This document shows positions 7,446 to 62,505 of a DNA stretch of 64,000 nucleotides, in pieces. Position 1 is the stretch's first letter. Each line of letters begins with the position of its first letter. The stretch comes from Candidatus Pelagibacter communis. Lineage in GTDB: Bacteria > Pseudomonadota > Alphaproteobacteria > Pelagibacterales > Pelagibacteraceae. The position numbers and the translations under genes were made by a program. The notes beneath the pieces are model-generated. The model worked only from the letters and a program-made list of their open reading frames with translations. It was not told the origin of the DNA and ran no database searches. The stretch lies in NCBI RefSeq assembly GCF_001179985.1, contig NZ_CVSI01000073.1, positions 1-64,000 on the forward strand. Reading direction: 5' to 3'.

Positions 7446-9106
7446 TAGTTTAAAGAATTATAAATCCAATTATCTTTAAAGTTATTAAGTTCTTCTGGCA
7501 AAGGAGCTCCTTGAAACATACAAATCCTTAACCACTTGTCTGATCTTGGGTCAAATTTACAAGCACCAAAGAAAGACAATTTAAGTCTTAGCATGTCAAT
7601 CGGGATTAATTTGTGTCCAATTGTATTATCTTGTATTTCTGAATACGGGAATTTTTCAATTAGGAAAGCTCTCCTAACAACATGTCTTAAATCATTATTA
7701 TCTACTAAAAATCTACTTACCGGCAAACTCTGCTTAAAATTCGTAGCTCTAAAATATAATTGATTAATATCTCTTGCTATTGCAAGCGGTTGCTCTAATT
7801 CAGATCCTTGTTCTTTAAATCTATTTGCGATCCTTGGTTCCTCTTTATTTTGAGAAATAAACCAAAAATTTTGGTTATTTTCATTTTTATTAAAATCGAT
7901 CTTGATTAAATTTCCATAATATTTTTCTATAATATTTACTAAATCTCTGATAGTTTTATGAGTTGGTATATTAAAATATTTATCCTCATTTGAGCTCATC
8001 GTTGAAATCAATGGTTCGGTTATATTATCAAAAGGTTCCATTAACATTGAAACTATGTATTCAATACCCTCTTCGCTTAAATTATTCTCAGCCCATAAAT
8101 AAAACTCATTAAAAAAATAATCCTTTTTTTCAGAATAATTTGTATCTAAGAAATCTGTTACTTTTTCTAAATCTTTTTTTAAATTTTGTATCTTTCTTTT
8201 TTGATAATCACTATCTGTTTCCCAAGAAAAAATATTCTTGAGAGACTTTTTTAAACAATCTAAAAAATAATTGTAATCATTACTACTAATTATTTTTAAT
8301 TCTCTAATTTTTTTTAATGCAACTTCCCTGGCAATTATCCAATTATTTAATAAAGTTGGATGATTTATTATAAATGGTGCCATACCTAATCCTGTTGAAT
8401 TACCTATGCCCAAACTTCTACAAATATTTTTATCCAATTCGACCGCAGATCTAGGGTTTTTAGATTTTGCAATATGATTAACTTGATCAAACGTAAACTG
8501 TCTTACAAAATAAACTAACATCATTTCTAGTCTAAAAGGACCAACTATTTCTGGTCTATTTTTAATTCTAAATCTATCTGCTAAACCAAATTTTCCTGAG
8601 CCATATACTGCTGTGGTCCTATAAAGATATCCAATTTTGCCTATAATACTTTTATCTGGTTGTTTTCCATTACATAAACAGTCGACTACATAATTAAAAG
8701 CTCTTAACGATTTATTGGCTCTTGAAAGTGTCAATTCTTTATAAGTCATTCTACCAATTTCTTGTTTTGGGACATTTTTTTTTAATCTATCAATATCTTT
8801 TTTGGTGGGCACACCATCAAAGAGTGTGAAGCTCGCATCCCATTTAGTAGCGATAACTCTGTCTGATCTTTCATGATCACCAATTTTATTTGAAAAACAA
8901 ATTAATGAATAATTTCTAGTTTTTTTTTTAAATGAATAAACAGCAACACCATGTCCATTTTCATCTAAATTAAACATGTCTCTTTTGTAATCCCAGTCTT
9001 TAAATTCTCTTAGAAAAGATCTTAAAAATGATAATTTCGATTGATGAAATGAACCCAATCTTGAGAGTTTCATAATTTTTTTTGGATCTCTTAATTCTAT
9101 TTGCAT
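7445..9106 (-). CDS. 553-residue conserved-looking protein of unknown function
   Basis: I do not recognise a family. The chain is soluble, without a signal peptide. Segments that look conserved are GHGVAVYSFKKKTRNYSLI (about 51-69), GKIGYLYRTTAVYGSGKFGL (156-175), RSAVELDKNICRSLGIGNST (about 230-250) followed by GLGMAPFIINHP, and near the C-terminus KLIPIDMLRLKLSFFGACKF with a final DKWLRICMFQGAPLPEEL. The middle (about 270-430) is charged and helical. The glycine- and Arg-rich GSGKFG/GIGNSTGLGMAP segments could bind a phosphate or nucleotide, but there is no proper P-loop. It is separated by one base from the M19-like gene upstream and overlaps the DUF3726-like gene downstream, so it is the central member of the operon. 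Confidence 0.6.
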   Translation of the reverse strand: MQIELRDPKKIMKLSRLGSFHQSKLSFLRSFLREFKDWDYKRDMFNLDENGHGVAVYSFKKKTRNYSLICFSNKIGDHERSDRVIATKWDASFTLFDGVPTKKDIDRLKKNVPKQEIGRMTYKELTLSRANKSLRAFNYVVDCLCNGKQPDKSIIGKIGYLYRTTAVYGSGKFGLADRFRIKNRPEIVGPFRLEMMLVYFVRQFTFDQVNHIAKSKNPRSAVELDKNICRSLGIGNSTGLGMAPFIINHPTLLNNWIIAREVALKKIRELKIISSNDYNYFLDCLKKSLKNIFSWETDSDYQKRKIQNLKKDLEKVTDFLDTNYSEKKDYFFNEFYLWAENNLSEEGIEYIVSMLMEPFDNITEPLISTMSSNEDKYFNIPTHKTIRDLVNIIEKYYGNLIKIDFNKNENNQNFWFISQNKEEPRIANRFKEQGSELEQPLAIARDINQLYFRATNFKQSLPVSRFLVDNNDLRHVVRRAFLIEKFPYSEIQDNTIGHKLIPIDMLRLKLSFFGACKFDPRSDKWLRICMFQGAPLPEELNNFKDNWIYNSLN

Positions 9107-54627: not shown

Positions 54628-54963
54628 ATGTTTGTAAGAAGAATATTTAAATACTTGATAACATTTGTAAAGAATACAAGGGCTTATTTAATATTTTTTT
54701 GTTTAATATTTTTAACAAACTGTGGTCAATATACCTCAATGATTGGTCCAAGTTATACACTTTTTGAATCAGGAAATGTGTTACGAGCTACAAGCTCTTA
54801 TGGTAGCTCTAACTTGTTTTCAAATGCAAAACAAAGTTACAAAGATGAAACTAATCCACAAAGAATTTGTCAAGAGTTACATAGTTCAGAATTACGCTCT
54901 ATATTTTTTGAAACACAAGACAACAAAGGTTGTATTTACGATCCAATGAGTATTTATAGATAA
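54628..54963 (+). CDS. Small lipoprotein of unknown function
   Basis: A 111-residue protein. The N-terminal part is basic then hydrophobic, ending in a lipobox LTNC (about residues 29-32), so it should be a lipoprotein with a mature part of about 80 residues. The mature chain is Ser/Tyr-rich, with conserved-looking GPSYTLFESGNVLRATSSYG and a C-terminal part containing two Cys (RICQELHSSELRSIFFETQD and NKGCIYDP). Several alphaproteobacterial genomes carry similar short lipoproteins; I cannot assign a role. It follows glutaredoxin by 17 bases. Confidence 0.55.
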   Translation: MFVRRIFKYLITFVKNTRAYLIFFCLIFLTNCGQYTSMIGPSYTLFESGNVLRATSSYGSSNLFSNAKQSYKDETNPQRICQELHSSELRSIFFETQDNKGCIYDPMSIYR

Positions 54964-54971
54964 TTTAAATT

Positions 54972-55313
54972 TTAAAAGAAAATATAATAAATCATCCAGA
55001 ATATAAGCGTATACTCAAAAAAACTTTTAAAAAGTATCAATTGCTTTTCACTAAATTTTTGTATCAAAAATTTTTTAAATAGAAAAAAAATTAAATTAAC
55101 AGTTAAAATTCCAATAACTAAACCAATAAACATAAGTTTGATTGAAAAGTTTTTATATCCAAAATAAATAGCTGCAATCAACGTGAACCAAGATACTTTT
55201 GTTATAAATATTTTAAATATAAGCCCAGCTTTTTTACTAAATACAGATTGTGTTTTTATTAATGAATAAGACCAGATTATTCCTATCAAAAAACTAGTAA
55301 ATTTTAAAATCAT
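54972..55313 (-). CDS. Small multi-pass membrane protein of unknown function
   Basis: A 113-residue integral membrane protein with about four hydrophobic segments (near 3-19, 38-52, 58-78 and 95-112) and short basic loops. Its ATG overlaps the stop of the ammonium-transporter/PP2C fusion (ATGA), so it is translated with it. In size and layout it resembles small ATP-synthase-I-like proteins, but no signature is present. A role as accessory to the fusion protein is inference. Confidence 0.5.
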   Translation of the reverse strand: MILKFTSFLIGIIWSYSLIKTQSVFSKKAGLIFKIFITKVSWFTLIAAIYFGYKNFSIKLMFIGLVIGILTVNLIFFLFKKFLIQKFSEKQLILFKSFFEYTLIFWMIYYIFF

Positions 55314-57547
55314 TTTCCGATTCCAATTATAGTCAAATCATCATCAAGTATATCATTATTATCTTTTATGCCTTTCTCTAAATAATCTTTTTTAAGACTT
55401 TTTTGCTTTATTTCCTCCGTAGCGTTGTCTAGTTCCTTTTTTAAAACTTGGTTCTCATGTTTAAGGATTAATTTTTTAACTCCATTAATACCTAATTCTT
55501 CATTATTTTCATCTAAACATTCTGAAAAACCGTCTGTGAAACAATAAATTCTTCCATTATTCAATTTAAAGCTTTCTAATTTATAAACATTTGAGTTAGT
55601 CTGTTTAACAATAGCTAATGGTGGTGTTTCAGATGGAAATTCTCTAAAATCCTTTTCTTTTCTGTACAAGGCTGGCTGATGTCCCGCGTTTGCTATTTCT
55701 ACAATATCTGTTTTTAAATTATAACACCCCACAATTGAAGTCACAAAAGTCCCAGTTGGATTTGTATCTTTTAAGTCATTATTCATTTCTAGTAAGATTT
55801 CATTTGGTTTAAATTTTAACTTTGAAAATATTTTAAATAATGTAATTGATTTAGCCATTACCATGCCAGCATTGACACCTTTTCCAGATACATCAGACAA
55901 TGTAAAATAAACCTGGTCATCGTGAAGATAAAAATCATAAAAATCACCAGAAATTTCTCTAGCAGGAATATTTAATCCATAAATAGGATAATTTGTAAGA
56001 TCCCTATTTGGCATTAGTTTTTTTTGAACATTCATTGCAAGTTTAATTTCTGAAGATACTCTTTTCTTCCATTTGTTTTTTTGTTTTTCACTTTGTTCTA
56101 ATCGATCCATTAAAATATTATATTGTGTTCCAATTATTCCACTATCTGTAAAAGGATCTTGTGGTGCTCTTAGTGAATAATCTTCAGTTTTAGCTTGATT
56201 AGTTAATACCTCTAATAATTCATGAGTATCTGTTGATGCATTATGTTCAGAAATATTTAATCCTAATTCTTCCTGAATTTTTCCAACTCTTAAAGGGAAA
56301 ACATAATTTATGGATTTAAATATTACAAATGCGGAAATAAAACAAAAGCCTCCTATACTAGTTACTCCGATTAATTGAATATATAATTGTTCCATTCTTG
56401 AAATTTCTAAACCCATCATTTCAAAATCTCCAAATATAGCAACAGACAAAGATCCCCAAACTCCAGCAATAAGATGAACCGGTATCGCGCTCACAACATC
56501 GTCAATTTTTAATTTTTCTAAAAAAACTATACCAAAGCCTGAAAGTAGTCCTCCAATACTTCCAATAAAAATAGCTTCACTTGGATTTACATAAGCACAA
56601 CTTGCTGTGATTGAGACTAATCCAGCTAAAGGTCCTGTAATCATAAATAATGGCTCAGGTTTTTTCATAACAAAAATTCCTAATATGCTTGAAAAAATTA
56701 AGCCAAAAGAGGCAGACAAAAATGTATTTATTAAAATTAATGGAATTTTTAAATCCATAGCTCCATTAGCTCCACCATTAAATCCAAACCAGCCAAACCA
56801 CAAAATCAATGCCCCAAGTGCTGCTATAGGAGTATTGCTACCTTGAAATAATTTTTTATCTTGGTTTTTCCTAAATCTACCTGTTCTACTCCCGATAATT
56901 AATAAGATTGCAAGAGCAACCCATCCTCCTACAGAATGAACCACAGATGAGCCTGCAAAATCCAAATATCCCATTTTGCCTAACCATCCAAATTTTTCAG
57001 AGGGTTCGTCAAAATTAAATGCCCAAGCCCAGTGCCCTACAATTGGATATAAAAATCCTGATGTGACAAATGTAATAATCACATAAGAAAAAAACCTTAG
57101 CCTTTCTGCAACAGCTCCAGAAATAATTGTTGCTGCAGTTGCCACAAACATAGCTTGAAAGACAAAATATGTTTGATAACCAGCAACTTTTGTTGTGAAA
57201 AAATAAAACTTATCACCAAACAAACCCATAACACTGGTCCCGTACATTAGCGCGAAACCAAAAGCCCAAAATGTAACAACAGCTATTCCAAAATCAGTAA
57301 TATTTTTTAATGCAACATTAATACTATTTTTATTTCTTGAAAGGCCAGACTCAAGACACATAAAGCCAGCTTGCATTAAGAAAACCAAAATTGCGCAAAT
57401 CAATAACCAAAATGTATCTAAATTTGCTTGAAGAATTGCTTCAAGTCGAAATTCTGTAGCTTTAAGGGCACCTTTATTTGTGAGTTCTAATTGGCTTATT
57501 TTTGACTGCAGCTTATCTATTAAAATCTGAAGATCAGCTACAGTCAT
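55310..57547 (-). CDS. Ammonium transporter fused to SpoIIE/RsbU-type PP2C phosphatase
   Basis: A 745-residue fusion. Residues 1-42 are a helical leader. Residues 43-430 are an Amt domain with eleven or so helices; the conserved Asp196 and the pore histidines His204 (LDFAGSSVVHSVGGW) and His358 (IPVHLIAGVWGSL) are present, so transport or binding should be intact. A linker helix (about 470-510) leads to a cytosolic phosphatase (515-745) with EISGDFYDFYLHDDQVYFTL, SDVSGKGVNAGMVMA, NAGHQPALYR, YCFTDGFSECLD and DDDLTIIGIG. These carry the metal Asp residues 535, 552, 672 and 736 or 737. The likely role is an ammonium-sensing phosphatase acting on a phosphorylated anti-sigma antagonist or similar protein. 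No such partner is in the window. It lies six bases after the HMA gene. Confidence 0.9.
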   Translation of the reverse strand: MTVADLQILIDKLQSKISQLELTNKGALKATEFRLEAILQANLDTFWLLICAILVFLMQAGFMCLESGLSRNKNSINVALKNITDFGIAVVTFWAFGFALMYGTSVMGLFGDKFYFFTTKVAGYQTYFVFQAMFVATAATIISGAVAERLRFFSYVIITFVTSGFLYPIVGHWAWAFNFDEPSEKFGWLGKMGYLDFAGSSVVHSVGGWVALAILLIIGSRTGRFRKNQDKKLFQGSNTPIAALGALILWFGWFGFNGGANGAMDLKIPLILINTFLSASFGLIFSSILGIFVMKKPEPLFMITGPLAGLVSITASCAYVNPSEAIFIGSIGGLLSGFGIVFLEKLKIDDVVSAIPVHLIAGVWGSLSVAIFGDFEMMGLEISRMEQLYIQLIGVTSIGGFCFISAFVIFKSINYVFPLRVGKIQEELGLNISEHNASTDTHELLEVLTNQAKTEDYSLRAPQDPFTDSGIIGTQYNILMDRLEQSEKQKNKWKKRVSSEIKLAMNVQKKLMPNRDLTNYPIYGLNIPAREISGDFYDFYLHDDQVYFTLSDVSGKGVNAGMVMAKSITLFKIFSKLKFKPNEILLEMNNDLKDTNPTGTFVTSIVGCYNLKTDIVEIANAGHQPALYRKEKDFREFPSETPPLAIVKQTNSNVYKLESFKLNNGRIYCFTDGFSECLDENNEELGINGVKKLILKHENQVLKKELDNATEEIKQKSLKKDYLEKGIKDNNDILDDDLTIIGIGK

Positions 57548-57553
57548 AAAATT

Positions 57554-57886
57554 TTATTGATCTATTAATTTTCTTGCTTTTTCTGCGTCTGTTATAATTT
57601 CATCAACTGTCATTACTTTAACAACTTCAAATCCAGTTCCAAGAATTGTATTTTTGTATTCTTCTTCTGATATAGGTGATTTTTCAGCAAAACTAGAAAC
57701 GGCAACTCCCTCCGGCCAAGATACTTTTACCTTTGCATTAGGCATTGCTTCTTGGAGAGCCTTGGTAACCATTTTCTGACATTTAACACACATCATTCCA
57801 TTTACTTGAGCAATTTGAGTTTGTGCAGCAAATAAATTTGTGGTCATGAAAAAAAATATAACAAATAAGATTGTTTTTTTAATCAT
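57554..57886 (-). CDS. Secreted heavy-metal-associated (HMA) domain protein
   Basis: A 110-residue protein with a signal peptide (residues 1-20, ending LFA) and one HMA fold: VNGMMCVKCQKMVTKALQEA with Cys33 and Cys36 as the metal pair. The second half (about 60-110) ends in a charged helix EIITDAEKARKLIDQ. The layout is that of periplasmic MerP/CopZ-like proteins, most likely binding copper. A good ribosome-binding site (GGAG) precedes the ATG. It is six bases upstream of the Amt-PP2C fusion, an unexplained pairing. Confidence 0.75.
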   Translation of the reverse strand: MIKKTILFVIFFFMTTNLFAAQTQIAQVNGMMCVKCQKMVTKALQEAMPNAKVKVSWPEGVAVSSFAEKSPISEEEYKNTILGTGFEVVKVMTVDEIITDAEKARKLIDQ

Positions 57887-59194: not shown

Positions 59195-60084
59195 TTAATA
59201 ATTTTTTTATTTGACAAATAAATCCCTGACAAAATAAATGAGGCTCCTATAAAATGATAAAGTTTAAATGTCTCTTGAAAAATTAAAATTGCTAGAACTG
59301 CACTTAGAAGTGGCATTAGTTGAATAAACATTGTAGCCCTATTTGGTCCTACTATTTCTATGCCTTTCTGCCAACAGAAGTATGCGGTTAGGGCTGGAAA
59401 AATGACAACATAAAAAAGTATAATAAAAAATATATTATTAAATTCTACCTGTAGCCCTATAGACTTTTCAAAAAAAAATTGGGGTAATAAAAATATAATT
59501 CCAACTGAAACCATCAATTGTATTAATGTAAATTGTGAAAGCTTGAAACTATACTTTTTAAGTAATGTCGAATAAAGTGACCAACAAATAACACAAACCA
59601 ACATCCAAAGATCACCTTTATTGAAATTTAAAGATAAAATTTTATTTATATCAGCATTTGAAATAATTGCGCTAATTCCTAGAACAGACAGTAACAGTCC
59701 AATTAATTGAAAGATATTTGTTTTATCTACTTTCATTATCGATGAAATAATTATTGTTACTGCTGGAATGGCTGCTAAAACTAGCGCTACGTTTATTACC
59801 TGTGTGTAGTTTAACGCAAAATATACTACTGAATTAAAAGTGCTTATTGATATTACTCCCATAAAACTTATTGGGATCCAATTTTTTTTTATGTAATCCC
59901 AATTACAAAAAATTTCTTTATATGTAAATGGCATTAAAATAAACCAAACTGAAATCCATCTAAAAAAATTTAATGTTAATGGAGGTATTTCAAATAGATA
60001 AGCAAATTTTCCCACAATAAAATTTCCTGACCAACAAAACGTAGCAAAAACAAGTAAAGTATAAGCTAAGTAATTTTTTTGCAA
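59191..60084 (-). CDS. DMT-superfamily (EamA) transporter
   Basis: A 297-residue membrane protein with ten predicted helices in two EamA repeats. LVFATFCWSGNFIVGKFAYL is the first repeat's signature, and WMLVCVICWSLYSTLLKKYS the second. Members export amino acids or other metabolites. The start appears to be TTG 60084, because no ATG lies between it and the in-frame stop upstream. It follows the DadA-like gene by eight bases. Confidence 0.82.
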   Translation of the reverse strand: MQKNYLAYTLLVFATFCWSGNFIVGKFAYLFEIPPLTLNFFRWISVWFILMPFTYKEIFCNWDYIKKNWIPISFMGVISISTFNSVVYFALNYTQVINVALVLAAIPAVTIIISSIMKVDKTNIFQLIGLLLSVLGISAIISNADINKILSLNFNKGDLWMLVCVICWSLYSTLLKKYSFKLSQFTLIQLMVSVGIIFLLPQFFFEKSIGLQVEFNNIFFIILFYVVIFPALTAYFCWQKGIEIVGPNRATMFIQLMPLLSAVLAILIFQETFKLYHFIGASFILSGIYLSNKKIIK

Positions 60085-60092
60085 ATTAACCC

Positions 60093-61337
60093 TTAATTAA
60101 ATCTTGAAGAACTGTAAGGAGATAGGTCTAAATTAGTTTTATCACCAACAATCATTTTAGATACTATCTTCCCTGAAATCGCTCCCAATGTCCATCCTAA
60201 ATGGTGATGACCAAATGAATAGTAAACATTATTATAATTTTTCGATTTACCAATTACAGGAAGAAAATCAGGCAATGTTGGTCTGAAACCTAACCATTCA
60301 TCTTCATGGTCTTCATTCTCAGGTAAACCGTTAAGCATGTCTTTTGCATTTAAAATTAAATTTTTAACTCTGGATTTAGATAACGGGTTCTTTAAACCAC
60401 CAAATTCAACTGTTCCTACAACTCTCAACCCCTGTTCCATAGGAGTAATACCAAAACCCCTATCTGCCCATACCACTGGCCTTGACAGTAATTTTGAGTA
60501 ATTTTTGAAATGAATATGATAACCTCTTTCAGTATCTAATGGAATTTTTTCATCTAATATATCTGTAAATTTTTTTGAAAATGCTCCACAAGCAATAACA
60601 ACTTTATCAAATAACAGTTTATCTTTTTCAGTAATTAAAACAGGTCTTTGATCTTTAAAATCAATATTATTAATATTTGTTTTTTTAAATTTACCGCCTT
60701 TGTTAATAAAGTTAACAAATAATTTCTCTATAATCTTTTTTGGATTTCTTGCATGTCTTGCATATTCATAAAATACTCCTCCATCATAAAAAGGTTTTAA
60801 ATTTGGTTCTAGATCGTGAACCTCCTTAGGATTTAGAATTTTTTGTTTTACACCTAATTTTTCTCGAATATTAATTTCAATCTGTCTACTTTTAATTCCT
60901 TTTTGTTCCCAAACGTACATTATGCCTTTATTTTCAACAAGACCCTCTAAATTAATGTCAGCAAACAATTCATCATAAGCATTTAGAGATAGATCTAAAA
61001 TTTGATGCATATATTTGGCTGTGTGCATCATTTTTTTTTCAGAACAATTCATTATATATTTTGAAAACCAAGGAATCATTTTAAAAAAATAATTCCATTT
61101 TAAAGCTAGCGGTCCTCTACTGCTTAATAGCATAGCAGGTACATCAGATAGCACATCTGATCTGTTTAACTGCAAGGAGGCATATGGTGAAAAATGACCT
61201 GCATTTCCATAAGAAGCTGCGCAACCTGGTTCATCTTTATCAAATAAAGTTACATCAATTCCTTTTTTTTGTAAAAATAAAGCATTGCAGACACCTTGAA
61301 TACCAGCACCAATAATAGCAACTTCGCTTTTTGACAT
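60093..61337 (-). CDS. D-amino-acid dehydrogenase-like FAD oxidoreductase
   Basis: A 414-residue flavoenzyme of the DAO/DadA group. The FAD motif AIIGAGIQGVCNALFLQKKG starts at residue 7, and GCAASYGNAGHFSPYASLQL is the DadA-type second signature. VIACGAFSKKFTDIL and the C-terminal SFGHHHLGWTLGAISGKIVS complete it. It oxidises a D-amino acid, or a similar secondary amine, to the keto acid plus ammonia, feeding electrons to the respiratory chain. It follows rodA by about 43 bases; D-amino acids from peptidoglycan turnover are a natural substrate for this position, which is inference. Confidence 0.82.
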   Translation of the reverse strand: MSKSEVAIIGAGIQGVCNALFLQKKGIDVTLFDKDEPGCAASYGNAGHFSPYASLQLNRSDVLSDVPAMLLSSRGPLALKWNYFFKMIPWFSKYIMNCSEKKMMHTAKYMHQILDLSLNAYDELFADINLEGLVENKGIMYVWEQKGIKSRQIEINIREKLGVKQKILNPKEVHDLEPNLKPFYDGGVFYEYARHARNPKKIIEKLFVNFINKGGKFKKTNINNIDFKDQRPVLITEKDKLLFDKVVIACGAFSKKFTDILDEKIPLDTERGYHIHFKNYSKLLSRPVVWADRGFGITPMEQGLRVVGTVEFGGLKNPLSKSRVKNLILNAKDMLNGLPENEDHEDEWLGFRPTLPDFLPVIGKSKNYNNVYYSFGHHHLGWTLGAISGKIVSKMIVGDKTNLDLSPYSSSRFN

Positions 61338-61380
61338 TGAAGTAATCTACATCATGAGAAAAAAAAATTATCGCGACAAA

Positions 61381-62505
61381 TTATGCAATAATCTGTTTTT
61401 GATAAATTTTTGTGCTCATTACAACACTAAAACCTATCATTGTAGCTAGCATAGAAGAACCTCCATATGACATGATAGGTAGGGGTGACCCTACAATTGG
61501 AAGTAGTCCTAAAACCATGCTCATATTAACTGTAACATAAATAAATATAGAGGAAGCGAATCCGTAACAAAATAATTTTCCAAAAAAGCTTCTGGCAGAC
61601 GCACCAATTTTTGCAGTTCTATAAATTATAATTGCGTAAAGAAAAAGTAATAAAACCGAACCAATAAATCCATGTTCCTCTGAAAATAACGTAAATATAA
61701 AATCCGTATGCTTTTCAGGTAAAAAGTCCAAATAGCTTTGTGTCCCTTTGAGGAAGCCTTTTCCTGATAAACCACCTGAACCTACGGCAATTTTTGATTG
61801 TATTATTTGATATCCTACACCAAGCGGATCTCTATCTGGGTTAAAAAAAGTTAATATTCTAAGTTTTTGGTACGGTTTTAAAAAAGATATTAAAAACGGT
61901 AAAGAAATTAATAAAATTAAAGAAGAATAGATGAAATATTTTACATTAACTCCAGATAACCATAAAACAACTAAACCACTCAAACCAATTAAAATTGAGG
62001 TACCTAAATCTGGTTGGCTTACAACTAATAAAATTGGTAAAATTAATACTACCATTGGAACTATTATATTTTTAAAACTATTAACTAAATGAATTTGGGT
62101 TCGGTGATAAAATTTCGCAAAACACATAATTATTGCAACTTTCATTAACTCAGAGGGTTGGAGATTAATAAAGTACAGGTCAACCCATCTTTGAGATCCA
62201 GATGCTTTTACTCCATACAAAGAAGCCCAAATTAATAAGCATAAAACCACAAAGTAAAAAATATAGCCGATTGAATGCCAAAGTTTTAAATTCACGAAGG
62301 AAAATATTAACATCATTGAAAAGAAAACTATAAATCGAATTACATGACTTTTTGTGTGGTAAAGAACTTCTCCTCCTTCTGTTGAATACATTGATAAAGA
62401 GCTTACAAGTCCAAGAATTAATAAGCAAAAAAGCAATATATAATCTAATGATCTAAGTTTTTGAAAGAAGGTGATTTGTCCACTTAGTGCTGTTTCTTGA
62501 AACAT
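61381..62505 (-). CDS. rodA: Peptidoglycan glycosyltransferase RodA
   Basis: A 374-residue SEDS-family membrane protein with about ten helices. GVKASGSQRWVDLYFINLQP followed by SELMK is the signature region. VVSQPDLGTSILIGLSGLVV, SKIAVGSGGLSGKGFLKGTQ, FLPEKHTDFIFTLFSEEHGF and GLLPIVGSPLPIMSYGGSSM are in standard order. With PBP2 it builds side-wall peptidoglycan. Its ATG overlaps the mrdA stop by one base. Confidence 0.95.
   Translation of the reverse strand: MFQETALSGQITFFQKLRSLDYILLFCLLILGLVSSLSMYSTEGGEVLYHTKSHVIRFIVFFSMMLIFSFVNLKLWHSIGYIFYFVVLCLLIWASLYGVKASGSQRWVDLYFINLQPSELMKVAIIMCFAKFYHRTQIHLVNSFKNIIVPMVVLILPILLVVSQPDLGTSILIGLSGLVVLWLSGVNVKYFIYSSLILLISLPFLISFLKPYQKLRILTFFNPDRDPLGVGYQIIQSKIAVGSGGLSGKGFLKGTQSYLDFLPEKHTDFIFTLFSEEHGFIGSVLLLFLYAIIIYRTAKIGASARSFFGKLFCYGFASSIFIYVTVNMSMVLGLLPIVGSPLPIMSYGGSSMLATMIGFSVVMSTKIYQKQIIA

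Follow-up and report, generated by a model that had tools for sequence, protein, structure and literature searches.

The fusion gene and its occurrence

The 64,000-nucleotide stretch of DNA from Candidatus Pelagibacter communis that was analysed as a whole (the window; NCBI RefSeq assembly GCF_001179985.1, contig NZ_CVSI01000073.1, positions 1 to 64,000 of the forward strand) carries on its reverse strand, at 55310-57547, a gene in which an ammonium transporter (Amt) domain is fused to a SpoIIE/RsbU-type PP2C phosphatase domain. The reading frame is single and open, starts with ATG and encodes 745 amino acids; its coordinates, strand and length are as the first-pass annotation of the window had them. 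The protein consists of an N-terminal extension (residues 1-43, 57419-57547), the Amt domain (residues 44-438, 56234-57418), a linker (residues 439-516, 56000-56233) and the PP2C domain (residues 517-745, 55313-55999). The Pfam family Ammonium_transp matched residues 47-438 (E 1.6e-107, 360 bits against a cut-off of 23.2) and SpoIIE (PF07228) matched residues 543-740 (E 2.4e-27, 96.6 bits against a cut-off of 25), thus the C-terminal part has the PP2C homology on which the first-pass claim hinged; the NCBIfam model TIGR00836 amt was likewise above its cut-off. Asp196, His204 and His358, named earlier as signs of an intact Amt domain, lie at these positions and are Asp, His and His in 51/51 other Amt-PP2C rows (52/52 with the window protein). 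In the phosphatase domain, D535, D552, D672 and D737, presumably the metal ligands, are Asp in all 52 aligned SpoIIE domains, i.e., 10 from Amt-PP2C, 8 from CHASE2-SpoIIE, 10 from GAF-SpoIIE and 24 from other alphaproteobacterial SpoIIE proteins. This confirms an intact two-domain Amt and SpoIIE/PP2C protein with all catalytic positions, and the Pfam scores together with the invariant Asp positions rule out a chance domain match. The AlphaFold model has a mean predicted local distance difference test (pLDDT) score of 67.7, with the PP2C domain modelled well. All 50 Foldseek matches listed for this model were Amt/Mep/Rh proteins, so that the PP2C fold lay outside the fold search. Nonsynonymous divergence (dN) was below synonymous divergence (dS) in all four regions of the fusion in 7/7 pairs, several of the dS values being saturated.

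The search for the same architecture in SAR11 that the first-pass annotation had proposed was productive. From a scan of a genome collection, the best 80 of 330 related stretches were kept as loci, and all 80 are assigned to Pelagibacteraceae, Pelagibacterales or Pelagibacter (SAR11) and carry an Amt-PP2C frame of 51-99% identity; the frame of locus L122 ends with its contig at residue 577. The fusions of two relatives are 98-99% identical to the window protein, and the kept loci yielded 108 distinct Amt-PP2C proteins of at least 685 amino acids, from many separate single-cell or metagenome assemblies. A near-full-length fusion is present in 19/61 genomes of the genus vs. 0/40 genomes of another family in the order. 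Within the family it was detected in 50 of the 397 genomes sampled (one, G969, holding a contig-end fragment and another, G1129, a copy with internal stops), in 42/140 high-quality genomes and in 2/14 genera. Coverage of the whole profile was found in none of the 385 class and 398 phylum genomes sampled apart from the window's own; these searches scored at most two candidates per genome, and the fusion may also exist outside SAR11. Among plasmids, 185 records matched and none had one place covering 80% of the query, the best being a Vibrio Amt-GGDEF protein. The single-contig genomes G865 (1,308,759 bases), G874 (1,456,888 bases) and G882 carry the fusion; the window itself lies on contig 73 of a 945-kb assembly of 74 contigs that is 75.5% complete.

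The fusion family comprises two paralogues, A of about 716 and B of about 745 amino acids, the latter with the N-terminal extension, which exceeds that of A by about 29 residues in the alignment and is predicted at low confidence to be helical. The window gene is copy B, and A copies are 52-55% identical to it. Many relatives have both; in AG-893-K09 and AG-912-F23 the two are on separate contigs (B on L082 and L083, A on L131 and L132), and no copy A was detected in the genome of the window, which is incomplete. Directly upstream of the fusion lies a gene for a small HMA-like CxxC protein (57554-57886, reverse strand), which is probably secreted. Such a gene directly precedes B in 46/46 testable loci and A in 0/62, a further four B loci having too little upstream sequence; the single A-like copy of G846, from another genus, also has one. 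On the other side, a frame of 113 amino acids at 54972-55313, with no Pfam family above cut-off, shares its first four bases with the end of the fusion gene and may be translationally coupled to it. A short lipoprotein-like gene (54628-54963, forward strand; cluster c18) recurs near fusion or pilin genes in many relatives.

A sensor-type Amt domain with a predicted phosphatase output

The solved structures closest to the Amt part by sequence are Sd-Amt1 of Shewanella denitrificans (8qj3/8qpf, 396 bits) and Ks-Amt5 of Kuenenia stuttgartiensis (6eu6, 282 bits), transport Amts ranking below both, and Foldseek gave the same order. The PDB titles of Sd-Amt1 (8qj3, 8qj4, 8qpf) describe a receptor with ON and OFF states, whose output we take to be a diguanylate cyclase in place of the PP2C domain seen here. 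Ks-Amt5 is likewise an Amt receptor with a C-terminal output, in its case a histidine kinase. Its ammonium is reported to be held by Q24, E31, N47, D50, T51, T109 and T112 (PMC5764959), and the aligned counterparts in the window protein are Q59, E66, N82, D85, F86, T140 and S143, so that five of the seven are identical, T112 is replaced by Ser and T51 by Phe. E66 and N82 are common to all 22 standalone Amts compared. The discriminating positions are Q59, D85 and T140, which are invariant in 52/52 Amt-PP2C proteins and 26/26 other Amt fusions and are occupied by A, L and S in 16/22 standalone Amts, including two from SAR11 (L004, L024). In a tree of 62 Amt domains, the Amt-PP2C proteins form one clade (100/99) inside a fusion clade (100/99) of 40 rows. 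This tree, in which two SAR11 transport Amts were included, speaks against an origin of the Amt part from SAR11's own transporters, and that origin was rejected. The Amt part is thus, as far as residues and phylogeny predict, of the sensor type with a putative ammonium site. The first-pass annotation had left open whether passage or occupancy would be read; since the domain groups with sensor Amts, occupancy of a dedicated ammonium site appears the likelier input and passage the less likely one. Six standalone Amts of other bacteria (L212-L217) share the sensor-type Q/D/T residues with the fusions, of which they are the sister group; they may be sensors with separate partners.

The Amt domain and the same linker motif recur in other Pseudomonadota with different outputs. 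Of 26 such fusions, ten were analysed with Pfam and 16 were seen as sequence; five of the ten end in HisKA/HATPase and five in GGDEF, three of the latter with EAL; SpoIIE was found in none of these ten, four of which are cut by the locus end. The first part of the linker is common to the Amt-histidine kinase and Amt-GGDEF fusions. Its comparison with HAMP gave a single Pfam hit, below threshold (E 0.15) and confined to one relative, and an hhalign probability of 0.9% against a HAMP set of three rows. Because the Amt domain and linker motif are shared with proteins of other outputs, we regard the SAR11 fusion as the same receptor module with another output, judged by homology. The titles and abstract openings of the open-licence literature searched contained no Amt-PP2C architecture; the sensor-Amt group was already known, and the PP2C output is new to it as far as this literature shows.

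The origin of the output domain was traced in a tree of 52 SpoIIE domains, which has several long branches and whose outside loci are the 24 best-scoring ones from other genomes of the class. The Amt-PP2C domains are sister (98/95) to those of the CHASE2-SpoIIE proteins of SAR11 pilus loci, the nearest PP2C relatives, which have a CHASE2 sensor instead of Amt; the group also holds GAF-SpoIIE proteins and four other alphaproteobacterial SpoIIE proteins. The simplest history would be the fusion of a pilus-locus phosphatase with a sensor-Amt module. The one other SpoIIE protein of the window's genome is a GAF-SpoIIE on contig C24. In a relative, a CHASE2-SpoIIE gene (L026 1942-3993) and a GAF-SpoIIE gene (L025 4300-5670) lie in the same pilus region, which suggests several inputs to one STAS/RsbW pair.

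Candidate STAS/RsbW partners and their linkage to pilus genes

The statement of the first-pass annotation that no STAS, RsbW or sigma gene lies in the window holds: no frame of the window matches the STAS or RsbW proteins of relatives, and the genome's sole HATPase_c_2 match lies on contig C14 and its sole Sigma70_r2 match, RpoH-sized, on C36. The look elsewhere in the genome that it had advised uncovered a STAS gene (G000:C14:7903-8202(-)) and an RsbW-like kinase gene (G000:C14:7453-7893(-)). The STAS protein, the one seen in this genome, aligns with RsbV and SpoIIAA through the phosphorylation site (MDSSG, Ser54), and the other protein aligns with RsbW, its kinase role being predicted. The pair (7453-8202), also checked with Pfam, is located between pilC and two pilin genes, near pilB, a secretin gene and other pilus genes, and the order pilC, RsbW, STAS, pilin, pilin, Amt-PP2C recurs in relatives. 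Among the 80 kept loci, 45 have STAS, RsbW and pilin genes beside the fusion, six more have pilin and three more CHASE2-SpoIIE. In G846, a fusion of 49% identity stands beside RsbW, STAS, prepilin peptidase, pilin, PilC and PilB genes. Some relatives have two tandem STAS genes (94 and 99 amino acids) before RsbW (L222 1590-2170; L038 9822-10402; L063 10218-10798). The window itself starts with a long protein of cluster c7 (3-1460) with repeated 'FNPDGTKMF'-like motifs, whose relatives recur near the pilus clusters in other genomes of SAR11.

The genome content of the genus is consistent with this linkage. RsbW (over 50 bits in 24 of 61 genus genomes) occurs in 24/27 genomes with a PilB-type MshEN match vs. 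0/34 without (Fisher 5e-14), and lies within 3 kb of PilB in 22/24. The fusion and RsbW are both present in 16 genomes, the fusion only in 3, RsbW only in 8 and neither in 34 (Fisher 2e-6); the corresponding numbers for the fusion and PilB are 16, 3, 11 and 31 (p 5e-5). Since RsbW also occurs without the fusion, the latter is best seen from these counts as an accessory input to a putative switch that exists without it. The family P-II was found in 0/37 genus genomes vs. 21/24 genomes of the neighbouring family. The title of a 2013 article by Smith calls the response of Pelagibacter ubique PII-independent. A paper on freshwater SAR11 attributes a PII system to other SAR11 (PMC6018831), which disagrees with our count for this genus. 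Nearly all Sigma70_r2 matches of the genus have the size of RpoD or RpoH, apart from exceptions in G003, G013 and G018 and from frames that contig ends cut short, and no sigma factor dedicated to the switch was seen among them or in the window's own incomplete genome, whose one RpoH-sized match is on another contig. For want of such a sigma factor, we would describe the STAS/RsbW system as one that works like an Rsb-type partner switch and would not file it as a classical sigma-controlling member. An output via cyclic di-GMP was considered and rejected, as there is no GGDEF match in the window's own genome at its given completeness; yet the PilB of a relative has an MshEN domain.

In Bacillus, RsbU and SpoIIE dephosphorylate STAS proteins (PMC11418112). 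The SAR11 set resembles this RsbU/SpoIIE-RsbV/SpoIIAA-RsbW/SpoIIAB switch in its SpoIIE-type PP2C, its STAS protein with aligned phosphorylation site and its RsbW-like kinase, and differs from it in the Amt input, the lack of a visible dedicated sigma factor and the location of the genes in a pilus cluster. In Nostoc punctiforme, HmpU-HmpV-HmpW are described as a partner switch associated with type IV pili, for which the STAS protein is proposed as the output (PMC6495340); this system, compared by description alone, differs in that the available part of its report mentions no Amt input.

A proposed ammonium-gated switch

We propose with moderate confidence that the fusion is an ammonium-gated membrane phosphatase feeding a pilus-linked STAS/RsbW switch, in a genus in which no PII was detected. 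Ammonium, or a related cation, would bind the sensor-type site of the Amt domain, and the resulting change would pass via the linker and switch the cytoplasmic PP2C domain on or off. The phosphatase would then dephosphorylate the STAS protein (in the present genome at Ser54, within MDSSG), while the RsbW-like kinase would phosphorylate it. The STAS/RsbW pair of the same genome could thus be the substrate system of the PP2C domain. The phosphorylation state of the STAS protein would set which partner is bound, and the pair would set the state of the pilus, i.e., its assembly or activity. The GAF-SpoIIE of this genome and the CHASE2-SpoIIE of relatives probably bring other signals into the same switch. 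The sequences establish the architecture, the conserved positions, the ancestry of both domains, the gene linkage and the co-occurrence, while we infer the ammonium dependence, substrate, direction and target. The process controlled is most likely type IV pilus assembly or activity, because the STAS/RsbW genes lie inside the pilus cluster and RsbW was detected only in genomes in which PilB was detected too. The first-pass idea that ammonium is turned into the dephosphorylation of a partner agrees with a sensor Amt joined to a complete PP2C domain, with the P-II count and with the presence of STAS and RsbW in the genome. Its notion of a simple nitrogen sensor is retained in so far as the Amt domain is of the sensor type, while the linkage points to type IV pili and not to nitrogen metabolism as the controlled process.

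Several observations weigh against this proposal. The linker, through which the signal would have to pass, is poorly modelled by AlphaFold. The window fusion gene is not adjacent to STAS/RsbW or pilus genes, and 26/80 loci lack STAS, pilin and CHASE2-SpoIIE genes, some of them being short contigs and others holding A at a second site. The gene set at the window locus (HMA, lipoprotein, EamA, HDAC-like, MsrB, Grx) is that found around B in L106 and other relatives, in another order, and for this reason a rearrangement seems to have moved copy B away from the pilus cluster. Eight RsbW-positive genomes lack the fusion and three fusion-positive ones, 55-74% complete, lack RsbW, and the Fisher tests ignore relatedness and genome incompleteness. 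The window's own genome, itself incomplete, yielded no CHASE2-SpoIIE. The Q/D/T residues also occur in 6/22 standalone Amts, which are the sister group of the fusions. Two of three Ks-Amt5 pore-blocking residues (Y30, F34), as well as T51, are not kept, and for the former reason transport through the Amt domain is possible.

The last point leads to the explanation that survives best beside ours, namely that the protein is a working ammonium transporter whose PP2C domain is regulated by transport or acts locally on transport or metabolism, the pilus linkage being incidental. The Phe-gate, Trp, Asp and twin-His positions are intact, which together with the changed pore-blocking residues and the distance of the window copy from pilus genes is what such a transporter would predict. 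However, the Amt domain falls in the clade of the receptors and has their Q/D/T signature, contig C16 of the genome encodes an ordinary Amt of the other Amt group besides, and the STAS/RsbW linkage recurs in another genus (G846), so we consider this explanation unlikely. Somewhat less probable still is that the phosphatase acts on STAS/RsbW but the switch controls RpoH or RpoD, and hence transcription, not pili directly. Classical RsbW and SpoIIAB do bind sigma factors (PMC11418112), and RpoD- and RpoH-sized sigma factors are present in genomes of the genus; on the other hand, none of the named gene clusters close to STAS/RsbW in the listed loci is a sigma gene, and RpoD/RpoH are also found in genus genomes without RsbW, which instead tracks PilB. 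We find it improbable, to a greater degree, that the PP2C domain is a Ser/Thr phosphatase of broad range, which would dephosphorylate many proteins without being specific for STAS. The SAR11 phosphoproteome of 555 phosphoproteins, with no known protein phosphatase according to the part of the report available (PMC13198564), would leave room for such an enzyme, but domains of the SpoIIE/RsbU type recognise STAS substrates by specific docking (PMC11418112) and the linkage is to STAS/RsbW. Misassembly, a frameshift or gene decay, for which only the fragmented and incomplete assembly speaks, can practically be dismissed, since the 80 kept loci from separate assemblies carry the fusion, two of them at 98-99% identity, as do the three single-contig genomes, and dN is below dS with invariant catalytic residues.

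Few regulators are known from SAR11, whose cells rank among Earth's most abundant. Of the single-contig genomes, G865 may be strain HTCC1062 and G874 may be HTCC7211. In G865, copy A spans 60069-62219 and copy B 62323-64560; this genome also has two STAS genes, an RsbW gene (67078-67512) and a GAF-SpoIIE-like gene (77115-78461), and A, B, RsbW and one of the STAS genes were checked with Pfam. Both Amt-PP2C genes and the GAF-SpoIIE-like gene are thus no more than about 12 kb away from the RsbW gene. In a 2025 phosphoproteome of HTCC1062, rsbW (SAR11_0057) is given as the sole predicted Ser/Thr kinase and no known protein phosphatase is reported in the accessible part of the text (PMC13198564). 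If G865 is this strain, the SAR11_0057 kinase gene has three phosphatase genes at distances of up to about 12 kb. More tentatively than the proposal itself, we picture two paralogous Amt-phosphatases that would read environmental ammonium and act post-translationally on the pilus machine via the STAS output, without a sigma factor or cyclic di-GMP. Copy B might receive a second, periplasmic input from the HMA-like CxxC partner via its extra N-terminal helix, and both copies might belong to the set of phosphatases reported missing in HTCC1062. The fusion suggests a so far unnoticed way for SAR11 to respond to ammonium, and, should G865 indeed be HTCC1062, the missing phosphatase, PII-free ammonium sensing and pilus control would be directly testable in a cultured strain.

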